Positions 2,136 to 9,133 of a DNA stretch of 64,000 bases are shown here, piece after piece; within the stretch, counting starts at the first letter, position 1; every line of letters starts with the position of its first letter. The notes under the pieces were generated by a model that had not been told where the DNA came from, did not search any database, and saw only the letters and a list, made by a program, of their open reading frames with translations. The position numbers were made by a program, and so were the translations under genes. This stretch comes from an uncultured Desulfomonile sp. (GTDB lineage Bacteria; Desulfobacterota; Desulfomonilia; Desulfomonilales; Desulfomonilaceae), in the NCBI GenBank assembly GCA_903952205.1, contig CAJBEZ010000060.1, positions 62,001-126,000 on the forward strand, in the 5' to 3' direction.

Positions 2136-2938
2136 TTTTGTTGTTGGGGGGAACCTCAGAATCAGTGGACACCGCAAGACTTCTTGTGGACCATGGATTT
2201 GAATTTATCTTTTCGATGGCTACCGAGATTCCCATGGCTCTCCCTGAGTCGGCACTACTGACCGTAACGCGTGGAGTTATGGATAATACCGCCATGGAAA
2301 GTCTGATTCATGAGAGTATGATAGCCGCAGTGGTTGACGCCACTCACCCCTACGCGGTTGAAGCAACTAAAAACGCTATGCGCGCATGTAAAAATACCGG
2401 CGTAAGGTACTTCAGGCTGTCCAGACGTTCATCGGTTCCCGACGGTTCCAATATAATCCGGGCGAAGAACCATGAGGAAGCCGCTAACAAAGCCGGCGAC
2501 GCAGGTCGGACAGTTTTGTCCACCATAGGCGTTAGAAATCTCGCCGTATATGAGTCAGTCTGCTCGGCAAGAGCTATTCGCCTGATAGTGCGGGCACTGG
2601 GGAGCGTAGAGTCTCTAAACGCCATTAAATCTCTTGGGGTTCCTGGTCAAAACATCATAACAGGAAAGGGCCCATTTTCTTTCGAGGAAAACGTCTCAGC
2701 AATCAGGAGATTTGGAGTAGGGACATTAGTGACAAAGGATAGCGGTGTACGTGGGGGAACCGATGAGAAAATTCGAGCCGCTATCCAGGAAAAATGTCTT
2801 GTAATATTGGTTCAGAGGCCTGACCCGCAAGGAGGGGAAGTTTTTCTTGAACCGTCTGAACTGGTCGGTTCCTTGAAAAACTATTTGGGGGCGACATCCT
2901 CAAAAAGGGATGGGGTCACTTCCATCACAATATTGTAG
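2132..2938 (+). CDS. cobK: precorrin-6A / cobalt-precorrin-6A reductase (CobK/CbiJ)
   Basis: NAD(P)H-dependent reduction of the corrin macrocycle after ring contraction. The 268-residue protein starts with the glycine-rich ILLLGGTSES motif, contains the CobK/CbiJ hallmark VDATHPYA and the ITGKGPFSFEEN region, and ends with LVTKDSG followed by a family-typical tail. It is coupled to cobJ through an ATGA overlap. Its last 58 bases run opposite the end of thyX, so the two coding regions converge and overlap. Confidence 0.92.
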   Translation: MILLLGGTSESVDTARLLVDHGFEFIFSMATEIPMALPESALLTVTRGVMDNTAMESLIHESMIAAVVDATHPYAVEATKNAMRACKNTGVRYFRLSRRSSVPDGSNIIRAKNHEEAANKAGDAGRTVLSTIGVRNLAVYESVCSARAIRLIVRALGSVESLNAIKSLGVPGQNIITGKGPFSFEENVSAIRRFGVGTLVTKDSGVRGGTDEKIRAAIQEKCLVILVQRPDPQGGEVFLEPSELVGSLKNYLGATSSKRDGVTSITIL

Positions 2939-3603
2939 AGCATGACCGCTATTCTACGAACTTCCCATTCGGCGTCCCTGGGAAGCCTCAAGCGCAGAAA
3001 GTCTCTTAAGGCCCTGGCGTTTATCCACCAGATCCTTTCCTGCGACGACGCCACCGGGATGGCTCGTCTTGCATCCTCTTTGTGCAGTTTGCTGGAATTG
3101 CGCAGGTCGTCGTAGAGTTCGTAAGCTCTCCTGTTGTTTTGGCTCAATTTGTCCAAAGTTTCCTTTACAATCTTTTCCTCGGTAATGTAATTCAGGATTG
3201 GATAGACAAAAGCGACTCCCTGAGATTGGAACCTCCGGCTCGAACTGACGTGCCCCTGTCCTATTCTGTGTCTTGAAATCTGAGCCCCACACGCCTTGGA
3301 AATTCCGGAAACCCTGAAATTGAATTGTAGCGATTCAATTGGGGTAAGGTGGCCAAGATCAATAAGTTTCCTGTTAAGGGACTTTCTCCTCTCCAGATCA
3401 TGAGCCATTTTCTCCCGACTGCCATAACTGATTGCAGCGGACCATGCGGGCATGGTTTCAATTGGGTCCCAGAAATCTCTTGAATCTGAAGGCTTGTTCA
3501 AATTATCCAAGGGTACCGTGACGGCTTCTAGAACAACCTCCGGCTCTACATTTCCAAAACATTCGATTCTAAGCTGTTTCCAAGGGTCATCAATCCTGAT
3601 CAT
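2881..3603 (-). CDS. thyX: flavin-dependent thymidylate synthase (ThyX)
   Basis: Converts dUMP to dTMP with methylenetetrahydrofolate, FAD and NADPH, replacing ThyA. The diagnostic RHR-x7-S motif is present (RHRIGQGHVSS, residues 111-121), as is the C-terminal NARALRDFLRLR substrate-binding block. Its length of 240 residues is normal. It converges on cobK with a 58-base coding overlap. No thyA is visible in the window. Confidence 0.95.
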   Translation of the reverse strand: MIRIDDPWKQLRIECFGNVEPEVVLEAVTVPLDNLNKPSDSRDFWDPIETMPAWSAAISYGSREKMAHDLERRKSLNRKLIDLGHLTPIESLQFNFRVSGISKACGAQISRHRIGQGHVSSSRRFQSQGVAFVYPILNYITEEKIVKETLDKLSQNNRRAYELYDDLRNSSKLHKEDARRAIPVASSQERIWWINARALRDFLRLRLPRDAEWEVRRIAVMLYNIVMEVTPSLFEDVAPK

Positions 3604-3693: not shown

Positions 3694-5178
3694 CTAAATA
3701 TTAGCCCACTCATGAACATTTCCGACGTGTGGCCTCTTTTTTGAAAGCCTCGCTAGCGCGATTTTCCACATCTGTTCGAAATCCGAACTTTCGCTAGGAT
3801 AGTGACACCATCCAACTGTTACGGAATGGACAATCTCCACTCCATCAACGTGAGTGGTTTGCAAACTGAAAAGGCCCAGGACCCTTTGAATTAAATGTGT
3901 CGCCTCATCAATCGGCGCATTCTCAATGAACGAACCAAACCCACCGGTCCTGAACTTTCCCGCGAGTGTTTTGCGCTTGTCAATATTGAGAAGTCTTTCG
4001 GTAAAAACAGTAAGGAACCTCTTCATCCTCGTCATGTCATGTTCGAGATATATGGAGTCAATATTCTCGATTTGGACGAGTATCAGAAGACATGGCGTTC
4101 TTTCTGAGGCAAGTTGCGAGAACCTTGCTCCTGTTTGGAACCTGAAAAAACTTTCATTCATTAGGCCGGATTCGCCGTCGTAGAGCCGAACCGCCTTCAG
4201 CAGTTTCTCATTTACAACATTTCTTCTTACTATGGCCAGGATCGCCCCAATGAATTCCCACATAAAACGATCCTTGTCCAGAAGAGGATACTCCTTACTG
4301 GACGCCAGCAACAGGAAACCGTCTACACCCTCGCTTCTTGTCCAGGGAACTATGACGGCGCTCTTTACCGGGAAACCCAGCGCCTCGCCGACATGAAAAA
4401 CAGGAACAAACGCTTCGCCGGGTTTGGGACTTCCCATAATTACCGATTGAGCATTTTCAATTGACCATTTTGCCCAACCGGGCCGTAACTTTACTATGCG
4501 CCCCTTGCCGAGGGACTTGGAAAACCCCGCGGCGGATCTTACGCGGCAAGTCATGTTTGGTAGCGAAACTGTGGCTACAAGAGCTCCGTCAAACCTGCCC
4601 TTATTTACAAGAGACATGGCGAGTTCGTCAAAAAATGTCTCTGAAATGCCTGACGCAAGGCGGTACTCATTGAGCATCTCGGCCAGAGCGGCAAACTCCG
4701 ATCTTGTAGTGTCAAGCCCGTCTGAAGATCTGACCATTGTTAGGACGCCTTCTATGGCGCGGGCTATCTCCTTAATAAAACGGATATGGCCAGGCTGGAA
4801 AGCTGGCAGCTCGGTTGTGTCCACGACTAAGGCCGCATGATCTGAGACGGGGGCCACAACCATGGCAAGGACGGGTTCGGGTTTTGAATAAATCTCCTGC
4901 ACAAGCAGTGGAACGCCGGCATGGGTCTCGTGGCTTATCGAAGGTTTTGTAAACAGGGCTGATATACGTGATTTTTCGGATGATACCATTGATTCCGACA
5001 GGAAATGCTTGCTGAGTGTACGGTACGAAACAACTCGAAATGATCTGTCGGAGTTTGATCTCATGTAGATCGCTACAGTAAAAACCTCGAGTGATTCCAC
5101 AACGGCTGAAACCAGGGCATTTAAAGAGTGAATCAAGTCTGGGCTGTAATTCAAGGATTGTGGGAGAGAACTTGTCAA
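3694..5178 (-). CDS. GAF-GAF protein with degenerate GGDEF domain
   Basis: Soluble signalling protein of 494 residues. I read two GAF-like segments (about 15-150 and 175-320) followed by a GGDEF-fold segment. That segment begins with YDGESGLMNESFF (about 333-345), matching the domain's usual entry motif, but its signature is GGFGSF (412-417) instead of GG(D/E)EF. It is therefore probably not an active diguanylate cyclase and may bind a nucleotide or act as a sensor. Its ATG overlaps the stop of the upstream diadenylate cyclase by 4 bases, so the two are co-translated. Domain calls come from reading the sequence; GAF ligand residues cannot be named. Confidence 0.75.
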   Translation of the reverse strand: MTSSLPQSLNYSPDLIHSLNALVSAVVESLEVFTVAIYMRSNSDRSFRVVSYRTLSKHFLSESMVSSEKSRISALFTKPSISHETHAGVPLLVQEIYSKPEPVLAMVVAPVSDHAALVVDTTELPAFQPGHIRFIKEIARAIEGVLTMVRSSDGLDTTRSEFAALAEMLNEYRLASGISETFFDELAMSLVNKGRFDGALVATVSLPNMTCRVRSAAGFSKSLGKGRIVKLRPGWAKWSIENAQSVIMGSPKPGEAFVPVFHVGEALGFPVKSAVIVPWTRSEGVDGFLLLASSKEYPLLDKDRFMWEFIGAILAIVRRNVVNEKLLKAVRLYDGESGLMNESFFRFQTGARFSQLASERTPCLLILVQIENIDSIYLEHDMTRMKRFLTVFTERLLNIDKRKTLAGKFRTGGFGSFIENAPIDEATHLIQRVLGLFSLQTTHVDGVEIVHSVTVGWCHYPSESSDFEQMWKIALARLSKKRPHVGNVHEWANI

Positions 5179-6614
5179 TTCTTTTCCGTTTCGAATATCA
5201 CGCTGACGTGGACTGGATCAATGGAATCGATTCTAAGCCCATCGGGTTTTACGACCACTGGCATTCTTATCTGCTGACGCAACGCTAGTTCCGAGACGTT
5301 GACAGGATCAGTAGTGACCGACTGTAGCCTCTTTAAGTCACCCTGAGAAGCCCTAATCTTGACTTCTATCGGAGACACACCAATCTTGGTGTTGTCTGGA
5401 AGGGCCCCCACTATCGTCGGGACAACCTTAAAAACCTTAACTGACGCCGCTTCTATGTTAAGTTGGAGGTCTGATGGTCTGATCTGGGAGATGGTGATCC
5501 CCGGAGGAACCTGAAGATTATTGGATGTGAGTCTAAAAAAATTTAGCCCGGGTATAACTCTACTCAGATCAACAACCGCCCTTACAGAACCAGGGTTTAA
5601 ATTTTCGAGGCCTGAGGCGGAACCCTTGATTCTGACATCAATTCTATCCATCCATGGTCCTACTATTTCGGTGGAGGACGGCAGGTTAGTATACTGAATT
5701 GGAACTGATATCCCGATCTCTGATCGTTGCGGCCCAACTATCAGGAACCACAGAAAGACGGAGGTGCCGAGTGCCAGGAGCTTGAGCCGCCAATTTGAAG
5801 TGAATCGTGACGCCAGGCTTCGAGGAGATTTTTCATCTCCCGAGAAGCGATGATTGGCCAGGCTCTTTTCAAGGGCCTGCCTGAAGTCACTGCGGCGTTT
5901 GAAGAGCGTGATCTCCGAGCCATCGACCAGTGAAACATCACCTCTTTCTTCCGAAATTACCACGCAGACGGCGTCAGAGCGTTCAGAGATACCTATGGCC
6001 GCCCTGTGGCGAGTCCCGAACTTTGAACTGAGGTCTTCGTCACGTGAAAGCGGCAGGATACAGGACGCCGCCTTGAGTCTATCATGATAGACCAGCGCTG
6101 CGCCGTCATGAAGAGGGGAGCTTTTCTGGAAAATGGCCTGAAGCAATTCGGCCGACAAAGCGCTATCCAAGTCCTTGCCCTTAACGATAAGGTTGTCAAG
6201 CGCGTCCAGTCTCTGGAAAACTATCAGCGCCCCTGTCTTTTGCCTCGCCAGTTCTGTTACAGCGTTAACCACATCCTCCAGCACGTCTGAATCGGCGCCC
6301 TGGTGCTGCCGATTCTTCCAGTGCCTTATGGGAGACGCCCTGTCGAGCATTTGACGGATTTCAGGCTGAAACACTATTACCAGGACTATAATTATGGCGG
6401 CCCAAACATATTGGAGGAGAATCGAAGTGAGAATCAGGCCAAGCTTGCTTGCCAGAAAATAGAAAATACCGGTTCCAATGAGCGTAACCAGTATCTGGAA
6501 TGACCTGCTTCCCTTGAACCAGATCGCCACAAAATACATCAGAAACGCGATAAACCCTATGTCGATAAGGTTAATGAAGCTTATTGAAAGAATCCATTCC
6601 TTGATGAACGGCAT
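5175..6614 (-). CDS. cdaA: membrane diadenylate cyclase CdaA fused to a YbbR/CdaR-like region
   Basis: Makes cyclic di-AMP from two ATP. The N-terminus has three hydrophobic helices (about 10-32, 38-58, 62-83), then the DAC domain with both catalytic motifs, DGA (170-172, in LHDGAAL) and RHR (202-204, in GTRHRAAIG). Another membrane helix follows at about 276-294, then roughly 185 residues of YbbR-like repeats, which would face the periplasm. In Firmicutes CdaA and CdaR are separate, interacting proteins; here both parts are in one 479-residue chain. The downstream GAF/degenerate-GGDEF gene is translationally coupled. Confidence 0.93.
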   Translation of the reverse strand: MPFIKEWILSISFINLIDIGFIAFLMYFVAIWFKGSRSFQILVTLIGTGIFYFLASKLGLILTSILLQYVWAAIIIVLVIVFQPEIRQMLDRASPIRHWKNRQHQGADSDVLEDVVNAVTELARQKTGALIVFQRLDALDNLIVKGKDLDSALSAELLQAIFQKSSPLHDGAALVYHDRLKAASCILPLSRDEDLSSKFGTRHRAAIGISERSDAVCVVISEERGDVSLVDGSEITLFKRRSDFRQALEKSLANHRFSGDEKSPRSLASRFTSNWRLKLLALGTSVFLWFLIVGPQRSEIGISVPIQYTNLPSSTEIVGPWMDRIDVRIKGSASGLENLNPGSVRAVVDLSRVIPGLNFFRLTSNNLQVPPGITISQIRPSDLQLNIEAASVKVFKVVPTIVGALPDNTKIGVSPIEVKIRASQGDLKRLQSVTTDPVNVSELALRQQIRMPVVVKPDGLRIDSIDPVHVSVIFETEKN

Positions 6615-7110: not shown

Positions 7111-8127
7111 TCAGTGACCAGGAGCCCTGACGTGGCAGGATGCGCTATGTCCGCCGCCCATGTCTTTAAGCTCCGGAGCAATTTCAGAGCACATTTTTAT
7201 CTTAAACCGGCAGCGAGTGTGAAACCGACAACCCGTTGGAGGATTGATAGGGCTTGGGACATCCCCTTCGAGTATTATCCTTCGGCGTTTGGTCGTTGGG
7301 TCCGGTACTGGGGCAGCGCTCCAAAGGGCCTCAGTGTAAGGATGTAAAGGGTTTCTGTATATTTCTCGTCTGGGACCGGTTTCCACAATCTTTCCCAGAT
7401 ACATAACGGCCACACGATCTGAAATGTGCTCGACCACAGAAAGGTCGTGGGACACGAACAGATAAGTCAGGTTGTATTTATCCTGTAAATCCTCCATCAA
7501 ATTAAGGACCTGTGAGCGGATGGAAACATCGAGAGCCGAAACTGGTTCGTCAGCGATGATGAGGCTGGGATTAAGAGCGAGGGCCCTGGCTATTCCGATC
7601 CTCTGTCGCTGGCCTCCTGAAAATTCATGAGGATACCTTTCTGCGAATTCCGGTCTTAAGCCCACTTCACTCATAAGTTCCCTGACCCTGTCGGCCCTGT
7701 CTGCCCTTGATCCAATTCTGTGAATCACAAGCGGTTCCATTATGGCGCTCTTTACAGTTCGACGAGGATTAAGAGATGAGTAAGGGTCCTGAAATATGAT
7801 CTGCATTTTTCTTCTCAGATTCTGCATGTCTTCGAAACCGATCCGCGATATGTCCCGGCCCTCAAACCACACTTTACCGGAATCGGCGGCCTCCAGCTTG
7901 AGTATGAGTCTCCCGAGCGTGGTTTTACCACAGCCTGATTCACCTACCAAACCCAGTGTCTCACCCTTGAAAATACTTAGATCCACTCCGTCGACCGCAC
8001 GCAGCTTGAGGCCTCTGCCCCGGAAAAAGGAGCGCTCCACTCGGAAACTCTTTACAATGTTGTCTACCCTTACGAGTTCGCCGGCTTCATCATAAGCCTT
8101 GTCAATCTGCGTCGAATATGAAACCAC
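7111..8127 (-). CDS. DppF/OppF-type peptide ABC transporter ATP-binding protein
   Basis: ATPase subunit of a dipeptide/oligopeptide importer. It has Walker A (GESGCGKTT, about 62-70), a Q-loop (IIFQDPYSSLNP), the signature FSGGQRQR (about 169-176), Walker B (LIIADEP) and an H-loop (SHD). The C-terminal Opp/Dpp extension has the cysteine-rich CRFHTRC...C...C pattern, which in relatives binds an Fe-S cluster. I chose the GTG at 8127 behind GGAGAT. An ATG at 8193 is possible but would overlap the divergent gene. No permease, binding protein or DppD partner lies beside it, so it is an orphan subunit in this window. Confidence 0.88.
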   Translation of the reverse strand: MVSYSTQIDKAYDEAGELVRVDNIVKSFRVERSFFRGRGLKLRAVDGVDLSIFKGETLGLVGESGCGKTTLGRLILKLEAADSGKVWFEGRDISRIGFEDMQNLRRKMQIIFQDPYSSLNPRRTVKSAIMEPLVIHRIGSRADRADRVRELMSEVGLRPEFAERYPHEFSGGQRQRIGIARALALNPSLIIADEPVSALDVSIRSQVLNLMEDLQDKYNLTYLFVSHDLSVVEHISDRVAVMYLGKIVETGPRREIYRNPLHPYTEALWSAAPVPDPTTKRRRIILEGDVPSPINPPTGCRFHTRCRFKIKMCSEIAPELKDMGGGHSASCHVRAPGH

Positions 8128-8146
8128 ACCGGATCTCCATTTATTG

Positions 8147-9133
8147 ATGTCGATCTTGGCGACCGTCAAAATCCGTGATATACGGTCACGCAAAGAAAGT
8201 CAAACGAGGTTGGTTATCATAGAAGTCCTCTACGTTATAATAGGCGTTGCGCCGGGTATCCTCTGGTTGCTGTATTTCTTCATTATTAACCAGAATGAGG
8301 AGAGATCGGCTGAAAGCATATTCCGCGTTTTTGTCTGGGCGGCAATTTTTACCATTCCCACAGCCATTCTGGAGCACGCTCTGGCCGCGAGCGTTCACAA
8401 GGAAACCTTCCAGGAATCCATGTTCTCAAGCTTCTTCCTGATTGCGCCAGTTGAGGAATTCTTCAAGTTGCTCGCCGTTTGGGTCGGCGCTTACCGCCGG
8501 TCTGATTTCCGATCACCTATGGACGGGTTGACTTACGCTGTTACCGCGGCTCTTGGTTTTGTTGCGGTTGAGAATGCTCTTTACATCCTTCGTTTCGGGC
8601 CGGCCACAGTTTGGCTACGATTGTTCTACGCCACACCGGCTCATATTCTCTTCGCCGCCTTGTGGGGCTATTCGCTGGGTATGGCCCGATTCGCTCCGTC
8701 TGGCGAAGTCTTAATCGTTTTAAGAGGGTTTCTCCTTTCAGTCGCTTGTCACGGACTTTATAATTTTCTGGTCGCCTTAGCGCCGTCGAAGGCGAGGATC
8801 CATCTTGTCCCGCTTCTGATGGCCCTGCTTATTGTCGTCATAGCGCATGTCAGGAAACTGTACAGGATGTTTCCCTATGAAGATTTGGGAGAGACGCTCC
8901 TTATAATCTGTCCGAACTGCGAAGCATATTCGCCTCAATCCAACGCGACGTGCTCAAGGTGCGGGGCTTCTCTGTCAAATCTTGAGCCTGACAGTCCGAG
9001 GTTCTGCTGGAAGTGCCGACATCAGGTCTCCGCGGATTCAGCTAGATGTCCAAGATGTTATGTGAGACTCAGGAAAAAGGACTCCAAAGAAAAGACCCCA
9101 GCGGTTTTGAAAGAAGAGGCCATTAAGGCATGA
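8147..9133 (+). CDS. PrsW-like intramembrane protease with C-terminal zinc ribbons
   Basis: Multi-pass membrane protein of the PrsW/CAAX-protease-like clan. Conserved motifs sit in the helices: EE (103-104, in APVEEFFK), E142 (VENALY), H166 (TPAHILF) and H202 (CHGLYNF). PrsW in Bacillus cleaves an anti-sigma factor; the substrate here is unknown. After the last helix come two CxxC...CxxC zinc ribbons (from CPNCEAYS to CPRCYV) and a lysine/glutamate-rich tail, probably cytoplasmic. The start at ATG 8147 is a choice; a TTG at 8099 would run into the divergent ABC gene. Confidence 0.8.
   Translation: MSILATVKIRDIRSRKESQTRLVIIEVLYVIIGVAPGILWLLYFFIINQNEERSAESIFRVFVWAAIFTIPTAILEHALAASVHKETFQESMFSSFFLIAPVEEFFKLLAVWVGAYRRSDFRSPMDGLTYAVTAALGFVAVENALYILRFGPATVWLRLFYATPAHILFAALWGYSLGMARFAPSGEVLIVLRGFLLSVACHGLYNFLVALAPSKARIHLVPLLMALLIVVIAHVRKLYRMFPYEDLGETLLIICPNCEAYSPQSNATCSRCGASLSNLEPDSPRFCWKCRHQVSADSARCPRCYVRLRKKDSKEKTPAVLKEEAIKA

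Follow-up and report, generated by a model that had tools for sequence, protein, structure and literature searches.

The window, by which we mean the whole stretch of 64,000 nucleotides analysed from the genome of an uncultured Desulfomonile sp., carries on its minus strand a gene for a diadenylate cyclase and, overlapping its end, a gene for a 494-residue protein that we call P. The features of this locus are as follows.

5175-6614, minus strand: CdaA-type diadenylate cyclase with fused C-terminal YbbR (CdaR-like) region, 479 aa (TIGR00159, PF02457, PF07949)
5913-6266, minus strand: DAC catalytic domain of CdaA, residues 117-234 (PF02457, 5e-39)
6099-6107, minus strand: DGA motif of CdaA (sequence)
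6003-6011, minus strand: RHR motif of CdaA (sequence)
5199-5429, minus strand: YbbR repeat of CdaA, residues 396-472 (PF07949, 4.9e-10)
5175-5178, minus strand: TTGA, the 4-nt overlap of the cdaA stop (TGA) and the P start (TTG) (sequence)
3694-5178, minus strand: P, a GAF-GAF-pseudo-GGDEF protein, 494 aa, TTG start (open reading frame, predicted structure, homologs)
4729-5142, minus strand: first GAF domain of P, approximately residues 13-150 (predicted structure; GAF_2 match in homolog L040)
4219-4638, minus strand: second GAF domain of P, approximately residues 181-320 (predicted structure, match to 3trc)
3736-4182, minus strand: pseudo-GGDEF domain of P, residues 333-481 (PF00990, 1.8e-4; structure)
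3937-3951, minus strand: RTGGF of P, residues 410-414, at the GG[DE]EF position (HMMER and structure alignment)
2881-3603, minus strand: thyX (flavin-dependent thymidylate synthase), next after P in the window's genus (sequence search)

The cyclase is intact, as the first-pass annotation of this DNA had held: it scores 201.9 bits against the NCBIfam equivalog TIGR00159 (cut-off 188.8), exceeds the Pfam DAC cut-off too, and has both the DGA and the RHR motif. The N-terminal membrane domain PF19293 reaches only 18.3 bits, under its cut-off of 23.8, in a region that TIGR00159 covers. Missed at first was the YbbR region fused to the cyclase, whose repeat is predicted to be extramembrane and follows a hydrophobic segment read from the sequence at residues 274-293. 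CdaA and YbbR form a single polypeptide throughout Desulfomonilaceae, with complete frames of 478-547 aa; the DAC genes listed for the phylum mostly encode 250-330 aa, and frames above 400 aa occur in only a few other lineages. This CdaA is the only DAC gene in the window's genome, as against a second one in several Desulfomonilaceae (G010, G012, G017). A candidate c-di-AMP phosphodiesterase of the PgpH-type 7TMR-HD class is encoded elsewhere in the genome (G000:C68:20033-20617), and because each of the order's 18 genomes has such a protein, c-di-AMP turnover is plausible. The gene at 8099-9133 encodes a membrane protein that ends in a zinc-ribbon-like tail, by eye a PrsW-type protease; relatives (L037, L042) keep it beside the oppF-like ABC gene. 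A search of the window for Rfam families gave no match.

By sequence search, P matches GAF and GGDEF weakly, under the Pfam cut-offs, while its homolog L040 matches Pfam GAF_2 at 1.6e-7. The two GAF-like segments and the GGDEF fold that had been read from the letters alone were borne out by an AlphaFold model built from 38 sequences (pLDDT 85.5), in which two GAF folds precede one GGDEF fold; a pTM of 0.52 leaves the relative placement of the domains uncertain. The GGDEF region superimposes on 6d9m (Z 19.8, rmsd 2.3 over 157 residues) and 4urs (Z 19.3), and the second GAF domain (residues 156-326) on 3trc (Z 18.4, rmsd 2.9 over 165 residues). Tandem-GAF and GAF-GGDEF structures were among the leading Foldseek matches. 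Purifying selection acts on the gene, as a dN of 0.23 between it and the nearest relative indicates, at a saturated dS.

The GGDEF domain had been described as degenerate, with the signature GGFGSF. Degeneracy holds, and the register does not: HMMER and structure both place the GGDEF motif on RTGGF (residues 410-414), so that GGFGSF starts only at the third residue of the motif, and HMMER, with 4urs as reference, places the metal-binding Asp on Gln369. Neither the metal Asp nor an intact GG[DE]EF is present in P or in any of the 38 family members compared, which rules out an active diguanylate cyclase. The RxxD product site (I-site) is likewise missing from P at the expected place, where residues 401-404 read KRKT in the HMMER and structure register. 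Inactivity shared by all 38 members suggests that the site was lost long ago and that the domain has been kept for another purpose or is dispensable. Dispensability is also suggested by the many family members of about 300 residues that have no GGDEF domain.

Within the order, P is encoded in 10 of 18 genomes and lies directly behind cdaA-ybbR in all ten. A search of the genome contigs with the single sequence of P gave no match; a profile search recovered nine named loci in metagenome-assembled genomes, all adjoining cdaA. The pair is kept in all ten Desulfomonilaceae homologs, down to 28-31% identity of P, in agreement with the expectation that relatives would share it, and the Desulfomonilaceae P proteins form one clade in the tree (support 100/100). 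The overlap of stop and start, noted in the first-pass annotation with exact outer limits for the pair, recurs with a length of four nucleotides at every junction read, as TTGA, GTGA or ATGA. An overlap kept while start codons change is a hallmark of translational coupling; together with the low dN it rules out a chance overlap or a spurious reading frame.

The family cluster appears to have had a third member. In G009 the order is cdaA-ybbR, P and an mreB paralog; at locus L040 the paralog follows P, in an order that we took as ancestral. Four genomes without P (G010, G011, G016 and G017) have mreB directly after cdaA-ybbR. The arrangement is most simply explained by a cluster of cdaA-ybbR, P and mreB from which single members have been lost. 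In the window's genus this mreB has decayed: in G005, G006 and G008 it still follows P, but at a distance of about 3.7 kb taken up by thyX and cobalamin genes, and both its second phosphate motif (DIGGGTTEV replaced by VLLGGGVCEV) and the conserved EEPMAAA are gone. The copies at L154 (3901-5022), L155 (4405-5529) and L156 are degenerate MreB paralogs, or pseudo-actins, with lost ATPase motifs. In the window's own genome, no mreB was found in the flank of P, where the rest of the cluster is present with genes that by eye are siroheme-decarboxylase-like, NUDIX-type and D-aminoacyl-tRNA deacylase-like. The site of this loss adjoins inserted cobalamin genes. The genome has only two strong MreB matches, both elsewhere. 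Since P is intact there despite the loss, it must have another partner or target in this genome, for which the cyclase is the obvious candidate.

We searched 395 Desulfobacterota genomes with a profile of P, which retrieved one homolog per genome, mostly through the GAF part, and then with a broader GAF-GAF profile. The latter detected the family as a single copy in 83 of the 395 genomes. A clear gap at 1e-40 separates its scores from those of other GAF proteins, and a match well above this gap defined membership. P matches this profile at 2.8e-76 but is itself one of its rows; the link between P and the phylum family was found independently with profile A1, which held no phylum row. A gene for MreB lies directly downstream on the same strand in 68 of the 78 matches of the first profile and in five further members, so that mreB is the next gene in 73 of the 81 family members outside Desulfomonilaceae. 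Four f38 genomes, whose GAF genes adjoin mutL and a radical SAM gene, depart from this arrangement, as do three incomplete genomes belonging to a single genus and one member at a contig end; the borderline members G274 and G294 also have a nearby mreB. No DAC gene was found in the 78 flanks examined outside Desulfomonilaceae, which rules out a cdaA-P pair kept across the phylum, and with it the co-occurrence of the two genes across Desulfobacterota that had been proposed. DAC genes occur in 354 of the 395 genomes (90%), a near-universal distribution that makes a comparison of DAC presence with the GAF family uninformative. Taken together, the neighbouring second mreB and the DAC-free flanks indicate that the phylum-wide partner is the MreB paralog and not the cyclase. 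The link of P to the cyclase is, as the single clade of Desulfomonilaceae P proteins indicates, an addition at the level of this family of bacteria.

The neighbouring mreB is additional to the housekeeping copy. Among GAF-positive genomes outside Desulfomonilaceae with completeness of at least 90%, all 22 tested had a housekeeping MreB and another MreB, compared with a second MreB-like gene, in most cases very divergent, in 5 of 35 GAF-negative genomes (Fisher p 2e-11 by genome). Counted by bacterial family, with kinship handled by this grouping alone, the comparison is 15 of 15 against 5 of 34 as entered (Fisher p 1e-8); the GAF-negative genomes in fact represent 33 families, and the p value was computed with 34. 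No divergent GAF genes were found beside the second MreBs of GAF-negative genomes. The f38 genomes have a second MreB too, unlinked to the GAF gene. In an MreB tree all housekeeping copies fell into one clade (support 100/100), and all GAF-linked or cdaA-linked copies, with the unlinked copy of G266, fell outside it, although this outside set is not thereby a single clade. Outside the window's genus the paralogs keep the ATPase motifs DLGTANT, DIGGGTTEV and GGGALL, in some cases with one residue substituted, and most of them have FIN as their last residues. Three genomes of one genus (G046, G082 and G117, 62-79% complete) have the GAF protein and only one detected MreB; at their loci (L097, L093 and L102) the GAF gene is without an adjacent mreB. 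G106 (L076) has mtnA, the GAF gene and mreB in that order, and G301 has an MreB-like gene directly behind mtnA (L191, 2906-3910), so the GAF gene seems to have been lost in G301.

We propose, as a reading that we hold to be reasonably probable on comparative grounds, that P belongs to a family of soluble GAF-GAF-pseudo-GGDEF proteins which spans Desulfobacterota and works with a dedicated second MreB paralog. At the level of sequence, four elements of this proposal are established: P is one of the family, the diguanylate cyclase site has been lost, the family shows synteny and co-occurrence with the second MreB, and in Desulfomonilaceae the module has been joined to cdaA-ybbR. Because its relatives pair with a second MreB and not with a cyclase, regulation of a specialised bacterial cytoskeleton is the likelier role for P; in this view it descends from a protein that regulated or scaffolded a dedicated MreB paralog, and it probably works in that way still. 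Input would come through the GAF domains, sensing a small molecule, and the dead GGDEF domain would act as effector or offer a docking surface, and so control the assembly, localisation or stability of an MreB-like filament. In Desulfomonilaceae the module would have been placed secondarily under the c-di-AMP cyclase/YbbR operon and translated from there, an arrangement that would tie it to the state of the envelope, and in the window's own genome P would have to act on another target, either the translation-coupled cyclase or one of the remaining MreBs. Several observations weigh against an MreB partnership. Synteny and co-occurrence are no proof of contact; inside Desulfomonilaceae P is tied more strongly to cdaA (10 of 10) than to mreB; P persists without that mreB in its own genome, and mreB without P in G010 and three others; and the three incomplete genomes named above have the GAF protein with one detected MreB.

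The operon coupling that had drawn attention to this locus is real, and the idea of a new signalling pair made of cyclase and partner is partly supported, though not as the main reading. In its most specific form, P would be a dedicated regulator of CdaA-YbbR in the place of GlmM, binding the DAC domain and adjusting c-di-AMP synthesis to a GAF ligand. That P persists beside cdaA in its own genome, where the mreB paralog has been lost, is the best argument for such a role, which also accords with the uniform adjacency and kept overlap in Desulfomonilaceae and with the known regulation of CdaA by operon-encoded proteins (PMC8573169, PMC6368335). We nevertheless consider it doubtful, given that relatives of P elsewhere lie near no DAC gene (0 of 78 flanks), that DAC occurs in 90% of the phylum genomes and the family of P in only about one fifth, and that several Desulfomonilaceae have the same CdaA-YbbR without P. 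It is also rather unlikely, in our judgement, that P physically links the membrane cyclase/YbbR protein to the second actin in Desulfomonilaceae, thereby coupling c-di-AMP synthesis to filament assembly, with the P family as a whole being a dedicated regulator of the second actin across Desulfobacterota. Nucleotide binding by GAF domains and by inactive GGDEF domains is familiar from other proteins, and P might accordingly be a receptor of c-di-AMP, c-di-GMP or GTP, as its preserved pseudo-GGDEF fold and the plausible turnover of c-di-AMP in the order would allow; we think this improbable to a similar degree, since the metal Asp and the intact motif are missing in 38 of 38 members, the product site is absent from P where it would be expected (other binding modes being possible), and many members dispense with the GGDEF domain. 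Least probable is that the neighbourhood reflects mere co-transcription, with P a housekeeping or generic sensory protein unrelated to CdaA or MreB: the neighbourhood does vary by lineage, as beside mutL in f38, but the f38 genomes still have a second MreB, though unlinked, and the co-occurrence of GAF gene and second MreB goes far beyond chance.

GdpP, a phosphodiesterase of c-di-AMP, shares with P a degenerate GGDEF domain in a c-di-AMP context; unlike GdpP, P has no DHH/DHHA1 phosphodiesterase domain, PAS domain or membrane segment. In Firmicutes, cdaA, cdaR (YbbR) and glmM form an operon linked to cell wall synthesis (PMC8573169, PMC6368335, PMC5207132). The locus studied here shares a CdaA-type cyclase, a YbbR protein and an operon partner with it, but YbbR is fused to CdaA, the coupled gene encodes a GAF-GAF-pseudo-GGDEF protein, and no glmM was seen in the P-cdaA cluster. 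The nearest architecture, a GAF domain followed by a GGDEF fold, is that of Dcsbis (PA2771; PMC4937426; 4zmu), which Foldseek matched to P over the second GAF and GGDEF domains; Dcsbis is active, whereas P and the 38 family members compared have neither the catalytic Asp nor GG[DE]EF. The usual neighbour of the P family resembles the MreB paralogs Mbl, MreBH, MamK and Mad28 (PMC12713370; Mad28 likened by description only) in being an MreB-like actin that carries ATPase motifs and occurs in addition to the housekeeping MreB, but it lies outside an mre operon or magnetosome island and is tied to a GAF-pseudo-GGDEF gene. The literature searched, whose coverage leaves out most subscription journals, yielded no paper on an MreB-GAF-pseudo-GGDEF module, in keeping with the earlier impression that no system of this type had been described.

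Little is known of how cytosolic sensor proteins regulate MreB, and c-di-AMP has hardly been studied in Gram-negative sulfate reducers. A two-gene module of MreB paralog and GAF-pseudo-GGDEF protein, present in about one fifth of the sampled Desulfobacterota, offers a handle on the function of the second MreB. With a c-di-AMP cyclase in the same operon in Desulfomonilaceae, a possible link between c-di-AMP and the cytoskeleton becomes directly testable in this family.
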